Made by a program: the position numbers and the translations under genes. Source: Puniceicoccaceae bacterium 5H (GTDB lineage: Bacteria > Verrucomicrobiota > Verrucomicrobiia > Opitutales > Oceanipulchritudinaceae). Taken from it: DNA of 64,000 bases. The DNA lies in assembly GCA_009772895.1 (NCBI GenBank), contig WOUP01000002.1, positions 186,001 through 250,000 of the forward strand, written 5' to 3'. The notes beneath the pieces were generated by a model that was not told the origin of the DNA, did no database searches, and saw only the letters and a program-made list of their open reading frames with translations. Numbering within the stretch: the stretch's first letter is position 1; the number at the start of each line of letters is the position of its first letter. Shown here piece after piece: positions 432-21,066 of the stretch.

Positions 432-3400
432 ATGTATCTGAAGGAATTACGGATCAACGGCTTCAAGTCCTTTGCGCAGAATACGCGCCTGGACCTTGCG
501 CCCGGGGTCACGGCGATCGTCGGACCCAACGGTTGCGGCAAGAGCAACATCGCGGACGCGCTGCGTTGGGTGCTGGGGGAGTCGTCGGCCAAGTCGTTGC
601 GCGCGGGGGCCATGAGCGACGTGATCTTTCAGGGCACAACCAACCGTGCACCGTTGAACCTCGCGGAGGTGTTCCTGCTCTTCACCGATTGCGAAAAGCA
701 GCTCGGGCCCGGTTACAATGAAGTCGAGGTGGGGCGCAAGGTGGCGCGTGAGGGTGGCAGCGACTACTTTCTCAACGGCAAGCGGGTGCGTCGGCGCGAC
801 ATCCAGCAGCTGTTCATGGATACCGGCATCGGGCAGGTCAGCTACTCCTTTATGCTGCAGGGGCAGATCGACCAGATCCTCTCCAACGACCCGGCCGAGC
901 GACGGGCGATCTTTGAGGAGGCCGCCGGCATCTCGCGCTACAAGACGCAGCGGCGCGAGGCCCTGCAAAAGCTCGAAAGCGTCGACGCCAACCTCGCGCG
1001 CGTGACCGATGTGCTGGACGAGGTGAGCCGCCAGATCGGCACGCTCAAGCGCCAGGCGGCCAAGGCCATCCGCTACCGTCGGATCGATCGCCGCCGCCGC
1101 AGCCTCGACCTCGCGCTGAAGTCCCGGCGCTTTCAGCTCGTGCGCGAAGACGTGAGCGAGCACGAGCGCAAGCTGGCCTTTCTGGAGCGCGAAGTGGAGC
1201 AGGCCCGGCACAAGTTGCAGCAGGCGGAGGAGGCCATCGCGCAAAAGCGTAACCGGCGCAATCAGCTGCAGGCCCAGGCTCAGGAGCTGCAACAGCAGGT
1301 GTTCGACGCGCGTTCGCGGCGCGATCAGGCCCGGCAGCGCATCGGGTTCGCCGAAGAGCGCCTGGCGGACAACGCTCGGCGTTCGCAGGAGCTGGAGACG
1401 CAGATCGACCAGATCGAAGACCAGTTACAGGCGCTTGGCGTGCAGGTGGAAGAGCAGCGTGCGGTGTTGGAAAAGCGCCAGGCCGAGGGCGCGGAGACGG
1501 AGCAGAATTTTTCTCAGCAAGAGCAGGCTCTGGCCGAGCTGCAACGCCAGTTGGCCGACACCGAGCGCGCACACAGTCAGGCCCGGCAAGTGGTGTTGAC
1601 CAAAGAGAGCGGGGTGAGCCGGTTGCGGTCGCGTACCACCACGCTGGAGGTCGACTTGAAGACCTTTCAGGCGCGCCATGCCCAACTGGCGACCGATGTC
1701 GACGGCCTGAAGCAGGAAGTCGAGCGCCTGGAGCAGGAGGCGGTGCAAATCCGCGAAATTTGGCAGCAGCGCCAGCAGGATCACGCGCAGGCTCGCGAAA
1801 AGGTGGAGGCGGCGACCGCGCAGATCCGTCAGGCGCAAGAGGCGCGCCGCGAAGCCGAGCAGGCCTTGGCCGCCCTCGAGCAGCAATACACGCGTCAGGA
1901 GGGGCAAATCCAGGCGTGGCAGGCGCTGCAGGACAAGCTCGAGGGTTTTTCGCAGGGGGCCAAAGCGCTGTTGCAGGGCAAGCTCCAGGGCGCGTTGGCG
2001 GCGGCAGATTGCTCGTTGCTGCTCAAGCACCTGCGCGTAACGGAAGGCTACGGCGTCGCGATCGAAGCGTTGCTCGGCGCGGCGGGCGAGGGTGTGTGGG
2101 TGCAGGATCCCCAGCGTGTTCCGGGAGTGGTCGAAGCCCTGCGCGCGAAGAAGTTCGACCGCGTGGCGCTGCTGTTCGACACCGAGGCGCCCGTACCCAA
2201 CGAAGACGTTTCGCCGCTCGAGGGCCTGAAGCCCGCCCGCACGCTGGTAAAGGTGCAGACCGAGGAGGCGCGTCCGCTGGTCGACCGGTTGCTGGGCGAC
2301 TGCTACTATTGCGAGGACGTGGCGGCGTTTTTTGCGGCCTGGCGGGAGCATCCGGACTTCGCTTTCCGCTACCTCGTGACCGCCAACGGGGAGATGATCG
2401 ACGGGCGGGGCCTGATACAGGCCGGCGGGCGCAGCGGCCAGCAACAGACCTCTTACCTCGAGCGGGCGCGTCAGATCGATCAGGCCAAGGAGGCGTTGAA
2501 GCAGCTCGACGATCAGGTGACGGATGCCGGACAGCGCGTGGATGTCGCCGCGCGCAAGGTCCAGACCGTCGAGCAGCAGGCCGAAGAGCAGCGCAAGTGG
2601 CTCAACGAGCTGTCGCAGGAGCTTTCGACCCTGCAGGGCCAGCGCAAGAGTGCCGACCGCAGCCACGAGCAGGCGGGGCGGCAGTTGCAGCAGCGTCAAC
2701 AGGAGCTGGCCAAGCTCGAGACCCAACGCGGCGAGTCCGAGCAACGCCTGCAGGCGGCCCAGCAGGAAATGACCGCGCTGGAGCAGGAGATCGCCGCCGC
2801 GCAGGAACAGGTGACGCAAAAGGAGGCCGAGGTGGCGCGCTTGCGCGGCGAGGTCGAGCAGGCCAAGGAGAGCTTTAACGAAGAGCGCCTCGCGCGGGCG
2901 GAACGGCGTCAGCAGATCGAGTTGGGCCAGCGCGACCTGCAGGAAAAGGAGCAACAGCAACGCCGCGCCCAGAACGCGCTCAAGCAGCGCCGCGACGAGT
3001 CGCGCAACATCGCCCGGCAAAATACGGACTTGCAGCAGCAGTTGACCACCGCACGCCAGGAGGTCGAGACGGCGGAGGCCGAGCTGAACAAGGGCACGCA
3101 GCAGCTGGAGACCGCCCGGCAAGATCTGGATGCACTGGACAAGGACGTGACGGTGGTGGAAAAGGGCCTGACCGCTCAACGCGAGTCCGTCGAGCGCCTG
3201 ACGAAGGAGCACACGCGCGTCGAGGTGGCGTTGGCCAAGTTGCAGACGCAGCGGGACAATTTGCTCGCCGATGCCCAATCGGCCTACGAGCTGGACCTGA
3301 AGCACGAGGACTGGCGTCGCCATTGGCTGGAGGCGGGCGAGCCCGTGCCGGAGCGCCTGCGCGTGGAGATCGACGAGTGGGAGGCCGACGAGGCGGAGGA

Positions 3401-6778: not shown

Positions 6779-9271
6779 ATGTCCCGTCTTCTTGTGTGTC
6801 AGCTCGGCTGTGTACTCCTCAGTGCATCCGCTCTCTTGGCTCAGGACTATAGCGATCCTGCCTATACCGGTTCCGATTCCGATGATTCGGACCTGGAAAC
6901 CCTCGATACCTTTACCGCCAGCGGGCGCGTCACAGAGCCTTATCAGGCCGTCGGCTTCGACAGTGTGCGCGCTAGCACTACCGTTACGCGCGACGCCTTG
7001 CTCTCGGCACCGCCAGGGATCAGCGGCCTGAAAATGCTGGAAGGCATTCCCGGAGTCGTGATGAGCAACTCCGATGCGAACGGTCTTTACGAATTCGGCA
7101 ACCAGTTGCTGGTGCGTGCCTTCGGGTTCGAGCAACTCGGCTTTACCCTCGACGGCATTCCGATGGGCCGCACGCAGGCCTTTGGCGGCAGCCCCATCTA
7201 CCGCTACGTCGACAACGAAAATCTAAAGGAGGTCGTGGCCAACCAGGGCTCGGGTGACGTTACGGTGCCCGGCTATGTTTCCCTCGGGCCGTCGTTCGAA
7301 TACTTCACCGCCGATCCGACGGAAGATTTCGAGCCGCACCTGGAGGCCTCCTACGGCTCCAACGATTACACACGCGTCTTCGCCAAGGTCAACGTGGGCG
7401 AGATCGCGCCGGGGCTGACGGGCTACTACAGCATCTCGTCGATCCAGGCCAACTACTGGCGCGGGCCCAACGAAAACGACCGCATCCACATGGAGGGCAA
7501 GATCCGGTGGGAGGCGACGGAAAAGATCACCATGTCGGCCCTCTACGTCTACAACGACTTCGAGGACGGCGACTACCGCTTCCTGGGTTTGAGCGACTAC
7601 GAGACTTATGGGCGCTACTTCGATTACGCGCCCTATATGCCGGTCGCGCCCGGGCTGACCATGTCGACCGATGAGGTGGGCTATGATTACGCCGCCGCCC
7701 GTGCGGCCTACAATGCCGATCCGCAGGCCAACCTCGGTGCGTTCTTTGTGGCGACGCCCGACGGCATCCCGGACAACCTGCAGGGCCGCATGCTCGAGCG
7801 CGATGCCGACGGCAATCCGACCGGCGATATTGTCTCTACCGGGCGCGACGAAAACGGCTTTGTCGTGACCGATGAATATCGCGGCCACATCAACGCCCGG
7901 ACCGACGACCTCTTCGGCTACAACATCGACTTCGATCTCAGCGAAGCGATCAACCTGCACAGCACCCTCTACTATGAAGACAAGATGGGGGACGGCGTCA
8001 GCTACGACGATTTTGCAGGCGAGGTGGAGCACTACATCCGGCAGACGGAAAACGGCTTCGACATCGACGGCCCGCAGGGCGTGCTCTGGGGCCTGACACA
8101 CCTCGAAGGCGAGCGCTACGGCGGCCGTCTGGACCTGACCTGGGACGTGAACGAGATGAATACCTTCCAGGCGGGCGTGTGGTATGAAAACGATGAGTTT
8201 TACCGCAACACCACGCGCTATAACATCCGCGACGGCCTGGCCCAGCCTGAGCCGCTCTTCGATTCGATCGCCTTTCTACGCAAGGACTTCACGCAGACGA
8301 CCGACTCGATGCAACTCTACCTCAAGGACACCCTCAAGTTGCTGGAGGACCGGTTGACGATCGAGGCGGGCGTCAAGGCGCTCGACGTGGATGTGGAGGT
8401 CGACGGCTTCCGCAGCGTGGAAGACTACGACGTGTGGGCCCGTCGCTACGACGATGCCGATTTTCTCGCCAACGGCGCGCATATCGATGCCTCGTGGGAC
8501 GACTACTTCCTGCCCTCCGTGGGGGCCACTTACAACCTGACCGAAACCGTCCAGGTCTTTGCCTCTTACGCCAAGAGCATGTCGAGCCCGACGGCGGAAG
8601 GGGAGGATGTGCTGAGCTACGGCGATCCGCGCAATTTCGACGTGCCGGACGCGCCGACCTCGAACAATTACGACATCGGCTTCCGCACCAACTTCAACGA
8701 ATTCAGCTCCTCCGTGGCGTTCTACTATGTGGACTTTGCCGACAAGCTGGAGAACGTCGGCTACTTCGACGCGGAGCAGAACGAGACCTTCAACCAATAT
8801 GAAACGGTCGGCGCCGTGACGGCCTACGGGGTCGAAATCGCGTCCACCTACGTGCCGCGTTGGGCCGGGGACGATCTTGCATTGACGACTTCGCTGCTGA
8901 TCAACGAGGCGGAATACGAAGGCGACTACGGCGGGCGCGATGGCAAGACCGTGGTCGGCACACCGGAGTGGAACCTCACGGCCACCGCCACCTATTCGTT
9001 CAGCCAGAGCGTGATTGGCAGCGTGACCGCGACGCACATGGGCGAGCGGCCGATGGATCAGGACAATTCGCTCTACGCGGAGGCCTATACCACCGTCGAC
9101 GCCTATCTGGAGTTCCGCTTCGACATGCTGGGCGAGGCATACGAAGGCTTCAGCCTGCGCGTCAACGGCACCAATCTCACCGATGAGGACGCGTTGGGCA
9201 ACATCTTCAGCTCGGGCGGGCGCCCCATCCAGGACCGCGCCTACAGCGTGACCCTCCGGGCGATCTTTTAG
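6779..9271 (+). CDS. TonB-dependent outer membrane receptor (830 aa)
   Basis: Outer membrane beta-barrel that imports a ligand using TonB energy. The start MSRLLVCQLGCVLLSASALLAQ is a signal peptide. The plug domain occupies roughly residues 45-190, with the usual VTRDALLSAPP, LKMLEGIPGV, VRAFGFEQLGFTLDGIPMG and VANQGSGD elements. The rest is a long barrel rich in Tyr, Asp and Asn, ending in RAYSVTLRAIF with the terminal Phe needed for BAM insertion. There is no CarboxypepD-like N-terminal domain and no SusD partner. Being divergent from GH28, it may import pectin fragments, but ferric or other ligands cannot be excluded. It is followed by a strong hairpin terminator. Confidence 0.92.
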   Translation: MSRLLVCQLGCVLLSASALLAQDYSDPAYTGSDSDDSDLETLDTFTASGRVTEPYQAVGFDSVRASTTVTRDALLSAPPGISGLKMLEGIPGVVMSNSDANGLYEFGNQLLVRAFGFEQLGFTLDGIPMGRTQAFGGSPIYRYVDNENLKEVVANQGSGDVTVPGYVSLGPSFEYFTADPTEDFEPHLEASYGSNDYTRVFAKVNVGEIAPGLTGYYSISSIQANYWRGPNENDRIHMEGKIRWEATEKITMSALYVYNDFEDGDYRFLGLSDYETYGRYFDYAPYMPVAPGLTMSTDEVGYDYAAARAAYNADPQANLGAFFVATPDGIPDNLQGRMLERDADGNPTGDIVSTGRDENGFVVTDEYRGHINARTDDLFGYNIDFDLSEAINLHSTLYYEDKMGDGVSYDDFAGEVEHYIRQTENGFDIDGPQGVLWGLTHLEGERYGGRLDLTWDVNEMNTFQAGVWYENDEFYRNTTRYNIRDGLAQPEPLFDSIAFLRKDFTQTTDSMQLYLKDTLKLLEDRLTIEAGVKALDVDVEVDGFRSVEDYDVWARRYDDADFLANGAHIDASWDDYFLPSVGATYNLTETVQVFASYAKSMSSPTAEGEDVLSYGDPRNFDVPDAPTSNNYDIGFRTNFNEFSSSVAFYYVDFADKLENVGYFDAEQNETFNQYETVGAVTAYGVEIASTYVPRWAGDDLALTTSLLINEAEYEGDYGGRDGKTVVGTPEWNLTATATYSFSQSVIGSVTATHMGERPMDQDNSLYAEAYTTVDAYLEFRFDMLGEAYEGFSLRVNGTNLTDEDALGNIFSSGGRPIQDRAYSVTLRAIF

Positions 9272-15448: not shown

Positions 15449-16669
15449 TCAATGGGGACGCAGCAGAGGTGCCAAGCTGGTGGGGACTTCTTCTTCCACG
15501 CAACGCTGGGCCTCTTCGATCTCCTGCTCATGGTCGTCCGACAAGCCGGATGCAATGGCCAAGACGTTGCGGATGAAGGTGTTGTCCCACTCTGTTTCCT
15601 GCGGGTAGGGCCATTCCTGCGGCTCGCAGACGTAGGGCAGCAAAAAGCCGAGCGCACGGTCGAGGCTCGCGCCGTTGGAGGCCCTGTGGTCCATCAGGTC
15701 GACATCCACATCCAGGCCCAGCAGGGCGAGGCGGTAAAAGTGCTCCAGATTTTCCGTGCAATAGCTCCACGTGCGGGTGCGGACGAGTTCCTCGGGCTGG
15801 GCGCCGCTGGAGCGGATCTGGCGCTCGATGCGCGGGGTCACCGATTCTTCGAGCAGCCAGCGCACGTAGTCGTCGTTGCCGATAAAGTGGGCGACGCTGG
15901 CCGCCTGGAGGTCGAAGGCCGTGCCGTGGTTGTTGACCGAGCTGGCTTCGTCGCGGCCGTTGTCGTTGGTGATGAGCCAGCGGAAGTAGTCCTGATACCA
16001 TTCCTGCAGCGCCGTCAGATCTGCATCACTCAAGCTCTTCGAATCGGCGAGCACGAGGATGCCGTCAGCCAGTTCGCCCAGTGGGTGCGCGTCGATGATG
16101 CCCGTTCCGCGGCCGTTGGTGCGCCCGGGGATGGCCTGGGCATGGTTCAAGTTGGGCCGCATGTAGGTCTCGGGATCCAGAAACCATGCGCGCAACAGCT
16201 TCACGCCTTGCTTGGCATAGCGCTCTTCGCCGGTCAGGCGATAGGCGAGGGCGCAGTAGCGCACATCGTGGATCATCTGGTGCAGCGGCTCGCGGTCGGA
16301 GACCTTGTCGCGCTCCGGGTTGAACTCGCCGTCGCGGCGCACGTAGGGCAAACCGTCGGCCGTATCCGGGTTAGGCCACCAGTAGGGCCCCGTGCTGTAG
16401 TAGTCGTGCACGTTGCCGCTGGGCGGGGTCCGATCGTTAAACGTCACCGAGTAGACCTTCTCCTCCTGCACGATTGCGTCGGCCTGCTCCAGCACGCTCT
16501 CGCGCAGGGCAGGCCAGGTGCCCTCCTGAGAGTGGGCGAGGTCGTCGAGCCGCGGCTCTTGCCAGAAAAGCAGTTGATCGCCCTGCGCGTGCAAGGCGGG
16601 TGCGAGGCTGGCGAGCAACAGGGGCAGCTGCGCCAGGAGGCGTGGGGTGGGGATACGGAGTAGCGCCAT
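15449..16669 (-). CDS. secreted alginate-lyase-superfamily protein (PL38-like)
   Basis: A 406-residue alpha/alpha-toroid protein of the alginate lyase superfamily (PF05426), whose members cleave uronic-acid polysaccharides by beta-elimination. The signal peptide covers about the first 28 residues and ends LHAQ. Family landmarks are YYSTGPYWWPNPDT (about 90-103), DGLPYVRRDG, a Tyr-rich helix DVRYCALAYRLTG, HAQAIPGRTNGRGTGIID, and VNNHGTAFDLQ with Asn247 and His248 as likely active-site residues. The pattern is closest to PL38 enzymes, acting on alginate or glucuronan, but PL5-like or other uronan specificity cannot be excluded. It stands alone, with the kinase gene next in the same direction. 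Confidence 0.8.
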   Translation of the reverse strand: MALLRIPTPRLLAQLPLLLASLAPALHAQGDQLLFWQEPRLDDLAHSQEGTWPALRESVLEQADAIVQEEKVYSVTFNDRTPPSGNVHDYYSTGPYWWPNPDTADGLPYVRRDGEFNPERDKVSDREPLHQMIHDVRYCALAYRLTGEERYAKQGVKLLRAWFLDPETYMRPNLNHAQAIPGRTNGRGTGIIDAHPLGELADGILVLADSKSLSDADLTALQEWYQDYFRWLITNDNGRDEASSVNNHGTAFDLQAASVAHFIGNDDYVRWLLEESVTPRIERQIRSSGAQPEELVRTRTWSYCTENLEHFYRLALLGLDVDVDLMDHRASNGASLDRALGFLLPYVCEPQEWPYPQETEWDNTFIRNVLAIASGLSDDHEQEIEEAQRCVEEEVPTSLAPLLRPH

Positions 16670-16863
16670 AAGGTTACAAGCTAATAAATATTGGATTATT
16701 GGGCGTCAACTCCTTCTCGTGACTTTTCGGGGGTGGCTGTAGCGAGGCACCTAAGCATCAACCCGGCATTTAGCAGGTCACGGCCGGGCGATCCTCTCAC
16801 TGCCCGCGCAGACCCATAAACGGGAGCGTATGCAGCCAAGCGGGAGCGCTCAGGTTGAACTTC

Positions 16864-17298
16864 CTACTCGACTTCAAACGGCTCTGCGCCAAGTGAAACG
16901 GTTCCTGCTGCTGTCACCAATGCTTTGCCATCGCCCACCTTCAAATCCACTTCATATTCGAATCCAGGCTCCAGATACACCGAGGAATGGGCCGTCTTCT
17001 CCAGCGGAGAGAAGGAAACAAAGAACTTGCCGCGACTAAACGTTACACGTCCGACATTTCCCGTTTCAGCGTCTCGCTCGATGTTGAGCAGACGAATCAC
17101 AGAGCCCCAGCCCAACTCCAAGCATTCCTCACCGAGTTCTTTGTGGTAGTGCTCGCCCAAGGCGGAAAACAAGACAATCAATTCACCATCTTCAACGCCA
17201 GCGATTACCAATCGTAGCTCCTCTTTGGAGTCATGGGATACCTGGGCATTCATTGTCGCAACAAAACCCAGCGCGAACAGAATCGAAAGCAATTTCAT
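16864..17298 (-). CDS. small secreted protein, possible orphan immunity protein
   Basis: A 144-residue protein with a signal peptide (MKLLSILFALGFVATMNAQ). The mature part is strand-rich and acidic, with GKFFVSFSPLEKTA and EPGFEYEVDLKVGDG; no family is recognised. It is the last gene in the leftward run of small ORFs that follow Rhs C-terminal remnants, and its base composition is less GC-rich than the flanking lyase gene. That placement suggests a cassette gene, perhaps immunity to a periplasmic toxin now lost. This is inference from position only. Confidence 0.6.
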   Translation of the reverse strand: MKLLSILFALGFVATMNAQVSHDSKEELRLVIAGVEDGELIVLFSALGEHYHKELGEECLELGWGSVIRLLNIERDAETGNVGRVTFSRGKFFVSFSPLEKTAHSSVYLEPGFEYEVDLKVGDGKALVTAAGTVSLGAEPFEVE

Positions 17299-17375
17299 GG
17301 TAATGGTAGTCAGCTTTGCTGGCGACTCATGTGTCGCCGAGGACTTGCGGCGGTGGATAGGATAAGAAAGAACCG

Positions 17376-17708
17376 TTATTTAAACCTCGGAAGAACAACT
17401 AAGATCTCTACCGGAATCAAAACTACCACCGTAAGGATCAAAGCCAGTAGCCAGCGCCTCATATCTTTGTCATACCTTCTCGCAATACATTCCTTCAGTT
17501 TCAGAAGCTCACGTGAATCATTATCTTTAAAAAAAACTCTTCGCCTAAAAGCCACATCTCGTGATAGAATCGAAAAGCTGTCGTATGGGCACCGCTCCGC
17601 ACTAGATTCATACAGTTTGCACAATTTTAGATAAAGGAGGTACAGGCGAAACGCCGAGATCCAGCAATAAGGTACCGAGAGGAACACAAAGACCACAAAG
17701 GAAATCAT
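17376..17708 (-). CDS. small two-TM membrane protein, possible orphan immunity protein
   Basis: A 110-residue protein with one hydrophobic segment at each end: SFVVFVFLSVPYCWISAF near the N-terminus and WLLALILTVVVLIPVEIL near the C-terminus, flanking a basic, charged middle (about 35-82). The hairpin-like layout fits an inner-membrane protein. It lies 86 bases beyond the truncated Rhs C-terminal frame ending at 17794, in the same direction, the usual place for an immunity gene. No family is recognised. Codon use is AT-richer than the chromosome average in this window. Confidence 0.55.
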   Translation of the reverse strand: MISFVVFVFLSVPYCWISAFRLYLLYLKLCKLYESSAERCPYDSFSILSRDVAFRRRVFFKDNDSRELLKLKECIARRYDKDMRRWLLALILTVVVLIPVEILVVLPRFK

Positions 17709-17793
17709 CTTCTTACTATGTTACTCCGCCGTAGATCCGCTATCCCGCGAACTACACGCAGCCTTTCCTGCATTCCAGAGAAATGACCTCACC

Positions 17794-18250
17794 CTATAAG
17801 TCCACTCTGCTGCGGGTGTCGGTGAAATTTGCATATATTGTGAAATCAGGCAACTCAAAAACTGTGTCATCTGTCGTAAGGCGTGGAACGCCAATATCTG
17901 GCATGTCCTCGCCGAAGAGGTTGTAACGTCGATCACCCGTCACCATACCTAATAGGTCGCAGGCGCCGATCGGACTATTCGCGACGTAGGCATACGGGTG
18001 CGCCCGCCGGCGTCGTATTCATCGTGTGCGACCGCCTGCGCCGTTCCGCCGTTGTTGGCCTACAGCAGCATCAAATTGCCGTCGCGTTCATACGCCGGCA
18101 CGTAAAGCTCCCCATCGGTGTCTTCGATCGCCTGCAGCCCACCGATCCCGCCAGCGCCTCCATAGGCGCCGCTCATGTCCGGCCCTCAGCCATAGGTCTT
18201 GGTGTGCTCGAGGCCGCCAGAGTTTACTTCAAAATTCCGCGATCAGGTGA
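17794..18250 (-). pseudogene. Rhs core/C-terminus remnant, copy A
   Basis: Reading leftward, bases 18250-18003 encode a recognisable Rhs core ending (TYG..GPDMSGAYGGAGGIGG, GELYVPAYERDGNLMLL) interrupted by in-frame TGA and TAG codons. A one-base shift then leads into HPYAYVANSPIGACDLLGM, the hallmark where Rhs cores meet their variable tips. The frame continues through GDRRYNLFGEDMPDIGVPR and stops at 17794, leaving only about 60 residues of C-terminal domain. The core upstream of 18250 is gone. Similar junctions lie at 19040-19240 and 20505-20700. This is a displaced, decayed cassette of a polymorphic toxin gene. Confidence 0.75.
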
Positions 18251-18565
18251 AAATCGTGATAGAGGTAACGGGTCCTTTAGCCTGCTAAACTCTCATCGTT
18301 GGCTTCGATCGAAGGGCCGGATTGGCCTATTATCTCCCGTCTGTGGATTTCATTCAGAGTAGGGTCTGCGGCTATTTCTGCAAACGTGGCTGCGACAGCT
18401 AATTACGCCGTCCTTTTGGCCGCGGTCAGATATATAAGGAAGCGTGGAGATGGCTCAAGTTGAGCCAACGTGCCAGAGCTTGCCGACAGCACGAGGCGAA
18501 GCGCGGCGTTAGCCGTCCCTGCCATAGTGCAGGAGAGCACAAATTGAGTTTTGGTCGGCGGCGAA
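18251..18565. other. intergenic stretch inside the Rhs-remnant island
   Basis: About 315 bases without a supported gene. It begins with stop-rich sequence where the Rhs homology of copy A ends. A 7-bp palindrome GGCTCAAGTTGAGCC lies at 18452-18466, just before a weak, incomplete resemblance to an integron attC site (considered and rejected). Confidence 0.4.
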
Positions 18566-19012
18566 CTATGGAAGGTCAGCTTTGATGTAGATGAACCTGT
18601 CCAGCTGGGGGGAATCTATGTATTGGGAGTTCGCAGCCTGCATGAGGGCATCTTTACCCTCAAAGTTCAGCACTACATAGCACAAGCTTGCTTCAAAAGT
18701 CGCGGGTATACTATCATCGGGCATCAACACAACGTTGCTTTCCTCGATTTCCCAGCGACCTGTGTGTGAGTAGCCGACTGGAGCATCCTCTTGCAGCACT
18801 AGCTGAGTCCACTGGTACGTTTCGTCGTCTCGAAGCACGAGTCGCTCCACGGTATCGAGGTTCTTCCGAACGTATTCACCGGGCAGCTGCGTTGCTTCAA
18901 TCGTCTCTAAAACTTTCATCGATGCAGGATTTGAAGCCATGCAACCCGAGACGACCGACCCCGCCAACGTCAGCACGGCGAAAAAGCAAATTAGTTTTCC
19001 GGACATTCCCAC
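18566..19012 (-). CDS. predicted lipoprotein, possible orphan immunity protein
   Basis: A 148-residue protein with a lipoprotein signal: hydrophobic GKLICFFAVLTLAGSVVSGC with the lipidated Cys at residue 24. The mature part includes MKVLETIEATQLPGEYVR, ETYQWTQLVLQ and a YSHTGRWEIEESNVVLMPDD segment typical of small lipocalin-like or META/copper-resistance-like beta folds, though no family is certain. It begins 8 bases past the point where Rhs junction copy B would end, so it looks like an immunity gene retained after loss of its toxin domain. An outer- or inner-membrane lipoprotein could neutralise a toxin that acts in the periplasm. Confidence 0.6.
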   Translation of the reverse strand: MGMSGKLICFFAVLTLAGSVVSGCMASNPASMKVLETIEATQLPGEYVRKNLDTVERLVLRDDETYQWTQLVLQEDAPVGYSHTGRWEIEESNVVLMPDDSIPATFEASLCYVVLNFEGKDALMQAANSQYIDSPQLDRFIYIKADLP

Positions 19013-19029
19013 CTCCCAACATTTATGTT

Positions 19030-19250
19030 CAGGCCCTCGAAATCGGGCAACTCAAAACCGGGTCGTCAGATGTGAAATCTGGCACGCCAATGCCTGACAT
19101 TTCCTAGCCGAAGAGGTTGTAACGTCGATCACGCGGCACCATACCTAATAGGCGCCCAGGCGCCGATCCGGTTATTCTCGACGTAGGCGTACGGGTGCGC
19201 CTGCAGGCTTCATATTCAAAAGTGGGATCGTCGCCGGGAACAGGCGATAC
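19030..19250 (-). pseudogene. Rhs core/C-terminus remnant, copy B
   Basis: Leftward frames show PVPGDDPTFEYEA, then HPYAYVENNRIGAW, then (after a frameshift insertion) LLGMVPRDRRYNLFG followed directly by a TAG, then EMSGIGVPDFTSDDPV and a further shift into FELPDFEGLN. This is the same core/tip junction as copies A and C, with about 26 identical bases around 19108-19133. Only about 30 residues of tip remain. Its upstream edge abuts the stop codon of the 151-residue ORF at 19252, marking a recombination joint. Confidence 0.7.
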
Positions 19251-19251
19251 C

Positions 19252-19707
19252 TCAAGAATCTTCATCCTGAGCGTTTGACCCCTCCTCAGGCAATCCAATG
19301 AAAATCGCAGTAAACTGTACGCCCATTCCAATGGGCGAATGATCCTCCAACTTCCCTTGTAACCGAAATTGACAGTGTTTGTTGGCCTCCAAAAACGCCT
19401 GAATCTCATCGAAAGAGGGATCTGGGTTTACATCGAATCCAAGAATCACGCTTTCAGCAATCTGGCGATCTTTGGAAGCGCACTCAGAAGGAAAGAGTCG
19501 AAACTCGACGCCGGTGTAGCTTATGCACGCCTCGATCTCTACTTCCTTCCCAAAGTCCCCATTGCACTTCATCTCTAGCAAACGCCGAAACGAAATCGAG
19601 GCCACATCTTCATTCTCGCTGCCAATCGCTGCTTTCAACTCAGATCCTCCCTTCAGCGCCAACGCGCAGCAGATCATCGCAAGGACAAGCACATAGAATC
19701 TCATCAT
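19252..19707 (-). CDS. exported protein coupled to the Rhs C-terminal domain, putative immunity protein
   Basis: A 151-residue protein with a signal peptide (MMRFYVLVLAMICCALAL). The mature chain has four Cys (in MKCNGDFG, ACISYTG, SECASKD and NKHCQF), suggesting disulfides in the periplasm, and ends acidic. No family is recognised. Its ATG overlaps the stop codon of the 306-residue Rhs C-terminal ORF by ATGA, so translation is coupled. In polymorphic toxin loci that position belongs to the cognate immunity protein. Export of the candidate immunity protein would mean the toxin is neutralised outside the cytoplasm. The immunity role is inference. Confidence 0.6.
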   Translation of the reverse strand: MMRFYVLVLAMICCALALKGGSELKAAIGSENEDVASISFRRLLEMKCNGDFGKEVEIEACISYTGVEFRLFPSECASKDRQIAESVILGFDVNPDPSFDEIQAFLEANKHCQFRLQGKLEDHSPIGMGVQFTAIFIGLPEEGSNAQDEDS

Positions 19708-20624
19708 AAACCAGCCTTTCTACATTCCACTGCTCGATTATGAGTCGTTTGATCGTATCGCGAATGTATCCCTTGATATTGATCACCTTCAGTCGGGTTT
19801 TGTCCTTGGCCCGCTACTCCGAAATGGTGATTGCCGTCGCGATCTTGGTAATGAACTCCAATAAACCCATTCTGCATAGCGGATGCAGCATCCCCATCTG
19901 AGATAATCGAGACGGCATCATAATATTGATCAACACTAGCTTTGAAGCCACGCACCATATTTGTAACCCGGCTATAAGTCCAGCTACCCACAGAATGTGA
20001 ATGCCCAAGACCGAGAGGCTCGCTGTCTCTTGGCACACTAATATTAAACGTCCCTCCCGGATTCCCGGGATCAGCACCAAGCGGACCGGGAGCGCGGCCT
20101 ATGGAATACGAAAACGCGTGAGTCTCATTGTTCACAAAGATATGGGAATAATGCTCCCATCGAACTTGGGCACTTTCTCCTCGATAACTAAAATCAAAAT
20201 ACAAACTTTCAGTCATGGCCCCCGCGTTGATCATACTGGAAAGAAGAGTATCCACCAAATTCGTATGAGAATCGCCTTCCTTGATATTTAGTCCCGGATT
20301 ATCAGCGAAGAGACTGGCACAATTCTCCTTTGTCGGCTTCCACTCTTCCTTTTTGGGCGCATTAGTCCCGGAGCCTATGCCTCCAGATCCATTTGAGAGC
20401 TGGTTGAGATAAGACAAATCGATCGTGTTCTGTGTAAAGAAGAACGCATGCTCAAATTGCATATCAAAATCGAACCACCCTTCGTCCATTTCAGTGTCAG
20501 TGGAATTTGCATATATTATGAAATCAGGCAACTCAAAAACTGCATCATCAATCGTAAGGCGTGGAACGCCAATGCCTGACATGTCCTCGCCGAAGAGGTT
20601 GTAACGTCGATCACCCGGCACCAT
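19704..20624 (-). CDS. orphan Rhs C-terminal domain, possible JAB-like metalloprotease toxin
   Basis: A 306-residue ORF that begins exactly at the Rhs core boundary: MVPGDRRYNLFG is the sequence that follows the DLWG end of the core in copies A and B. The first 60 or so residues match the other copies; the remainder is unique. Residues Glu157 (VRWEHYSHIF), His208 and His210 (GLGHSHSVGSW), and Ser242/Asp245 (SIISDGDAA) follow the order E...HxH...SxxD used by JAB/JAMM metalloproteases and DUF4329-like Rhs tips. The spacing between HSH and SDGD (31 residues) is wider than in classic JAMM enzymes, so this is tentative. It lacks its core, so it cannot be exported as a full Rhs protein from here; recombination with an intact rhs gene would be needed. 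Confidence 0.6.
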   Translation of the reverse strand: MVPGDRRYNLFGEDMSGIGVPRLTIDDAVFELPDFIIYANSTDTEMDEGWFDFDMQFEHAFFFTQNTIDLSYLNQLSNGSGGIGSGTNAPKKEEWKPTKENCASLFADNPGLNIKEGDSHTNLVDTLLSSMINAGAMTESLYFDFSYRGESAQVRWEHYSHIFVNNETHAFSYSIGRAPGPLGADPGNPGGTFNISVPRDSEPLGLGHSHSVGSWTYSRVTNMVRGFKASVDQYYDAVSIISDGDAASAMQNGFIGVHYQDRDGNHHFGVAGQGQNPTEGDQYQGIHSRYDQTTHNRAVECRKAGL

Positions 20625-20705
20625 ACCCCAGAGGTCCCAGCCGCCGATCGGGGCTATTCGCCGACGACAGCGCTCAAATTGCGCCCGCCGGCGTCAGGGC
20701 CTTGG
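20625..20705 (-). pseudogene. Rhs core remnant, copy C (boundary only)
   Basis: Just upstream of the orphan C-terminal ORF a short stretch still encodes ALSSANSP and GGWDLWG, the last residues of an Rhs core, separated by a one-base insertion and preceded by stop codons. The core sequence further upstream is absent. The junction block 20505-20625 matches copies A (17823-17945) and B (19040-19145). Confidence 0.6.
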
Positions 20706-20989
20706 CCTGCAAATGATGCGAGCCGGCTGCTGGGGGAGGGCATCCGTGGGGCACTGCAGAGGTCCGCTGGCGTTTCTGGTTGGTCTTGAAAGAATCATGC
20801 CGGAATCCTTGCCCAGCTTTGGCTGGGGCGCCCGTCGCGGGAGGGCCTGTGCGCGGTGGACCTGTAGAGGCCGGAGAAGGCAAAAAAAAGTGCCCGTGTT
20901 TGGGGGCGGCAGGGGTTTCCTCGACGACGATTTCGTGGTATCTTGGCGGTTAACTTTAACCGGCAATTTCGAGACCCCGATGAGAGGAA
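20706..20989. other. intergenic region between Rhs remnants and tRNA
   Basis: No supported gene. GC-rich up to about 20930. A small palindrome (CGGTTAA/TTAACCG, 20947-20962) follows the tRNA on its 3' side and may help end its transcript. ORFs here carry the AGIEPAT phrase that commonly arises from reading a tRNA in the wrong strand. Confidence 0.4.
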
Positions 20990-21066
20990 TGGTAGCAGGA
21001 GCCGGGATCGAACCGGCGACCTAAGGCTTATGAGTCCTTCGCTCTAACCAACTGAGCTATCCTGCC
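20990..21066 (-). tRNA. tRNA with CAU anticodon (elongator Met likely)
   Basis: A full cloverleaf reads leftward from 21066: acceptor GGCAGGA with TCCTGCT, D arm GCTC/GAGC, anticodon loop CTCATAA (anticodon CAU), T arm with GGTTCGATCC, discriminator A and encoded CCA at 20990-20992. The loop matches elongator tRNA-Met; a tRNA-Ile2 (lysidine-modified CAU) cannot be ruled out by eye. The bottom pair of the anticodon stem is an A-G mismatch. The Rhs-remnant island lies directly downstream of its 3' end. Confidence 0.9.

Follow-up and report, generated by a model that had tools for sequence, protein, structure and literature searches.

A probable relic of an orphan rhs-CT/immunity array beside a tRNA-Met gene in Puniceicoccaceae bacterium 5H

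Introduction

In Salmonella and E. coli, orphan Rhs tips and their immunity genes collect downstream of an rhs gene, with which they can recombine. Salmonella orphan rhs-CT fragments lack signals for initiation and export, and become active when they recombine with the main rhs gene via the common core (PMC3967940). Here we describe a small region in a 64,000-nucleotide stretch of the genome of Puniceicoccaceae bacterium 5H (hereafter the window), which appears to hold the substrate side of this Salmonella-type recombination. A preliminary description had placed displaced Rhs C-terminal cassettes there, next to a tRNA gene and away from any core. We argue that an orphan rhs-CT/immunity array probably once lay here, and that the region is what remained of it after its parent gene was lost.

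Results

Three junction copies and a core remnant

The preliminary description reported three Rhs core/tip junctions on the minus strand, and these are real, having been recovered independently by a repeat search and by local alignment. The repeat search of the window returned one family (D1) of three copies (17816-17973, 19012-19169 and 20494-20651). Local alignment scores were 197 for copies 1 and 2 (shuffle maximum 33), 256 for copies 1 and 3 (shuffle maximum 28) and 149 for copies 2 and 3 (shuffle maximum 30). In a multiple alignment, copies 1 and 3 are ~90% identical and copies 1 and 2 ~82%, and the stretch coding for DRRYNLFG is unbroken in all three. Searching the organism's own genome with the junction DNA matched these three copies only. 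Their extents, refined by alignment, are:

Junction copy 1: ~18021-17816, minus strand; core remnant continuing upstream to ~18280
Copy 1 together with its core remnant, the longest of the three: 17816..18280, minus strand; RTRYLYHDFHLIAEF, GPDMSGAYGGAGGIGGLQAI, HDEYDAGG, HPYAYVANSPIGACDLLGMV, then the post-core block
Junction copy 2: 19218-19039, minus strand; decayed, with its tip lost
Junction copy 3: 20695-20494, minus strand; frameshifted Rhs core tail and post-core block GDRRYNLFGED...TDT

The repeated blocks were initially thought to end at DRRYNLFG, which is not the case; copies 1 and 3 are alike for ~35 codons further, through EDMSGIGVPRLTIDDAVFELPDFIIYANSTDT, and their homology extends to ...FELPDFxIYANxTDT. 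Copy 2 has a stop right behind DRRYNLFG and is frameshifted from there on. Altogether, the shared block reaches ~45 codons beyond the end of the Rhs core. Copies 1 and 3 differ by nine non-synonymous and three synonymous changes over 44 shared codons, a ratio that would be expected without strong constraint. An ELPDF-like motif as a common feature behind Rhs cores of the order was unsupported among 22 extracted sequences.

Copy 1 keeps ~320 bp of Rhs core, broken by stops, frameshifts and one internal deletion. Two stop-interrupted frames upstream of it read RTRYLYHDFHLIAEF, GGLEHTKTYG, GPDMSGAYGGAGGIGGLQAIEDTDGELYVPAYERDGNLMLL and ANNGGTAQAVAHDEYDAGG, followed by HPYAYVANSPIGACDLLGMV. When the pieces are joined, with stops read through for the search only, they align to Rhs cores from related genomes: L046 at 41% over 80 aa (E 1.8e-10), and L010 and L008 at E 7e-10 and E 4e-9. 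Copies 2 and 3 are homologous to the last part of copy 1. The 3' end of an Rhs core, a feature of orphan modules, is thus present in the region. What is deleted is the stretch from EYD to the HPYAYV end; in other cores of the order, a RYY...GR...RDPI segment occupies this place. In the alignment, copies 1 and 2 appear to be deleted from the same point and to carry an identical one-base frame change next to it. If this shared point, a matter of a few bases, holds, the two copies would have been duplicated after the core was already broken.

One open tip and four small genes

Behind the junctions lie five open reading frames; their signal, lipobox and hydrophobic segments were assigned by visual inspection:

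Only open tip ORF: 19704..20624, minus strand, 306 aa; the shared post-core block takes up the first ~45 codons, followed by a unique putative toxin domain without a family match
Candidate immunity gene 1: 19252..19707, minus strand, 151 aa; signal-like segment at the N-terminus; ATGA overlap between the tip stop and its start
Candidate orphan immunity gene 2: 18566..19012, minus strand, 148 aa; lipobox VVSGC; sub-threshold NlpE/DUF5004 similarity
Candidate immunity gene 3a: 17376..17708, minus strand, 110 aa; two hydrophobic segments; positioned after copy 1
Candidate immunity gene 3b: 16864..17298, minus strand, 144 aa; signal-peptide-like N-terminus

Read from the tRNA along the minus strand, the order is copy 3, tip and 151-aa ORF; copy 2 and 148-aa ORF; and copy 1, 110-aa ORF and 144-aa ORF. 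Only one tip remains open, as first described. Copy 2 is without one, the lipoprotein-like ORF (19012-18566) starting directly behind the junction, and the tip of copy 1 is truncated. A small gene had been said to follow each junction; this stands for all three, except that copy 1 is followed by two such ORFs (17708-17376 and 17298-16864) rather than one. Perhaps a further cassette has vanished from this end of the array (16864-17708, minus strand) and left its small gene behind. Orphan modules have a small gene on the same strand downstream, often coupled to the tip, and here we find four minus-strand ORFs, with the ATGA overlap at the open tip.

Neither the tip nor the four small proteins has a convincing match in Pfam, NCBIfam, PHROGs or PADLOC. 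A weak PADLOC match of gene 3a to a methyltransferase (E 0.0046, 13.7 bits) was taken as chance. The tip has no relatives in 388 genomes of the phylum, nor among genome contigs, plasmids and viral contigs, bar a low-complexity artefact (a weak match in genome G427 sits in a low-complexity translation). An HSH...S motif prompted comparison with JAB-like and DUF4329 domains, but Pfam had no match at E 10, and searching the order for DUF4329 produced none in the organism's own genome. Single-sequence AlphaFold modelling of the 306-aa tip yielded only a low-confidence model (pLDDT 31.5). Candidate immunity genes 1 and 2 have no relatives in 273 genomes of the order. We base the putative immunity role of the small ORFs on where they lie, how long they are and which export signals they carry. 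The open tip and the gene beside it, without recognisable relatives, might be a new toxin/immunity pair.

Genomic setting at a tRNA-Met gene

The array sits within an AT-rich island that ends at a tRNA gene:

Whole island: 16700..20985, no strand; 51% GC against a window mean of 61%
tRNA-Met (CAT): 20990..21066, minus strand; DNA identity to the genus mate ends at its 3' end

GC3 lies at 43-60% in the ORFs of the island and at 82-86% in three genes that flank it. The window matches the DNA of the genus mate (G001) across leuC and the tRNA-Met gene, as far as position 20986, 4 bp past the 3' end of the tRNA. At the opposite flank, identity ends at 16574, within the gene at 16669-15449, and from ~16574 to 20986 there is no detectable identity to the regions of G001 that were compared. 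In G001 the flanks are found on separate contigs, which places the island at a synteny break.

In G001, a fragment of the phage-integrase family (L071, G001:C20:104000-113000, 1101-1757, minus strand; Pfam E 2e-9) lies directly at the tRNA-Met 3' end, and its last codons read into the tRNA end. This fragment suggests that the tRNA-Met gene is an integration site in the genus. Compared with typical tRNA islands, the region has the boundary at the tRNA 3' end and lacks the integrase and the direct repeat of the tRNA end; no second copy of that end (an attachment repeat) occurs in the window, and no integrase or transposase was seen inside the island.

The missing core

The absence of an intact Rhs core, noted earlier for the window, extends to the whole genome assembly (4.10 Mb in 40 contigs, 98.64% complete) by two models. 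The Rhs-associated-core model has a single match there, to a fragment of 239 aa on contig C5 whose core type is different, and the YD-shell model has none. This C5 fragment (L059, G000:C5:66000-82000, 7161-7880, minus strand) lies near transposase-like ORFs and is the only other Rhs remnant found in the genome. Orphan modules are expected downstream of a main rhs gene with a common core; as neither window nor assembly holds an intact Rhs gene, we class the array as a relic of an orphan rhs-CT/rhsI array and not as a functional one. The missing core could sit in a gap between the 40 contigs.

A check proposed with the preliminary description, to find a relative's intact rhs gene ending in the same block, was negative in the 372 other genomes of the order; among 373 genomes, own included, the junction is confined to this one. 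Two weak junction matches in other genomes of the order are not in Rhs context as far as examined. Genome G019 was rejected as a junction carrier, its weak match (E 0.011) lying at the start of an open frame without an Rhs core. Across the genome contigs of 84,980 species, a degenerate pattern (DRRYNLFG plus an acidic residue) had one match, which falls in a protein that is not Rhs-like; viral contigs had none. As there is only one genus mate for comparison, these negative searches do not refute the Rhs cassette idea.

An intact Rhs locus in the genus mate

Contig C9 of G001 carries an Rhs gene of 4402 aa with its small gene downstream, and two displaced cassettes, all in the same orientation. 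One of these cassettes has a NucA/NucB nuclease tip with an RHS repeat, followed by a SUKH-1-like gene (below Pfam's cut-off), and the cassette tips diverge right after the core (DPSGM). Hence the layout proposed for the window, a parent gene with displaced cassettes, exists intact in the genus, with another core type. An IS transposase lies beyond this Rhs array (L060, G001:C9:1-20000).

Discussion

The idea of displaced Rhs C-terminal cassettes without a core is supported by the core remnant at copy 1, by the orphan-module gene order and by the parent arrangement in G001. We therefore consider it probable that the region is a relic array that has lost its parent. A full-length rhs gene would once have stood at the locus, or arrived along with the array, with displaced tip/immunity modules downstream, each headed by a short core stretch as recombination homology. 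After loss of the parent, the three modules would have decayed to differing degrees, giving an open tip with a coupled immunity gene, a junction with an immunity gene, and a broken core with a truncated tip and two small genes. Because no core is left, the tip would be undeliverable. The recombination mechanism is most likely dead here, given the broken core ends of the junctions and the absent partner gene. Residual immunity is possible; the intact small genes could still protect against the Rhs toxins of neighbouring strains, if expressed.

Four observations speak against the relic reading. No searched genome has the junction block on an intact rhs gene; the tip and candidate immunity genes 1 and 2 are without detectable relatives, so their roles are read from position; the homology continues for ~45 codons after the core, a longer stretch than in the G001 cassettes; and with an assembly in 40 contigs a gap could hide the core. 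The conserved post-core block GDRRYNLFGEDMSGIGVPRLTIDDAVFELPDFIIYANSTDT might be the pre-toxin or linker region of an undescribed Rhs lineage, in which tips are exchanged ~45 codons past the usual core end and the 306-aa tip represents an undescribed toxin class, but we find this doubtful.

Other explanations concern how the array arose and whether it still does anything. The earlier suggestion that the cassettes accumulated away from a core is unsupported, as loss of the parent, or arrival of a broken island at the tRNA, explains the data at least as well. The latter view, in which a mobile island that was broken beforehand inserted at the 3' end of tRNA-Met and no resident rhs gene was lost, is compatible with the relic reading and differs from it only in how the array got there. 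It would account for the end of G001 identity 4 bp past the tRNA, with an integrase-family fragment there in G001, for the AT-rich composition and for the flanks on different G001 contigs; set against this, the window has no second tRNA 3' end, and the island no visible integrase or transposase, and we regard arrival of this kind as credible though short of probable. A further suggestion is that the array is a useful store of orphan immunity, its tips dead and its small genes kept by selection against neighbours' Rhs toxins. The four small ORFs are all intact, and signal, lipoprotein or membrane segments occur in several of them, with junctions and tips broken in two of three modules; orphan immunity proteins are a known phenomenon (PMC10539506). 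However, candidate immunity genes 1 and 2 have no relatives in 273 genomes on which selection could be measured, and promoter-like sites in the region are no commoner than in shuffles; such a store is thus a tentative and rather unlikely reading.

A live cassette reservoir, still recombining with an rhs gene absent from the assembly, could be imagined from the one open tip with its coupled immunity gene and from an assembly in 40 contigs. Yet at 98.64% completeness neither model finds an intact core, and the core ends of the junctions are frameshifted and would not give an in-frame fusion to a core, which makes this very unlikely. It is barely credible that the junctions are an unrelated repeat family with an accidental likeness to Rhs; although the sole match to the DRRYNLFG-block pattern elsewhere is in a protein that is not Rhs-like, copy 1 has several successive Rhs core segments (E down to 1.8e-10).

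Comparison with known systems

Taken as a relic array, the region most resembles orphan rhs-CT/rhsI modules such as STM0291/STM0292 of Salmonella Typhimurium LT2 (PMC3967940), which are likewise displaced rhs 3' ends with a core piece and a small downstream gene in one orientation. In contrast to LT2, the main rhs gene is absent here and two of three tips are lost or truncated. The homology is also shorter and more diverged, at 180-200 bp and 82-90% between modules, compared to 522 bp at 95% between the main and orphan copies in LT2 (PMC3967940), and the block common to the modules reaches ~45 codons further than the core. Polymorphic toxin cassettes (Zhang et al. 2012, PMC3482391) similarly comprise standalone tips with adjacent immunity genes, although here tip and immunity genes are without a family match and the genome has no full-length toxin gene of the same core type. 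The rhs locus on contig C9 of G001 likewise combines Rhs cassettes that include pieces of core with small genes downstream, all on one strand, but has an intact 4402-aa parent, another core type, and a recognisable NucA/NucB tip with a SUKH-like neighbour; its tips diverge immediately after DPSGM, whereas homology in the window persists for ~45 codons beyond the end of the core.

Displaced cassettes of this sort are familiar, and an eroded orphan Rhs cassette array is ordinary in kind; only the tip/immunity pair is mildly interesting. Read as a relic, the case nevertheless shows how an Rhs cassette array may decay after loss of its parent, with the tips going first and the small downstream genes staying open, and it adds an example beyond the enterobacterial model systems.
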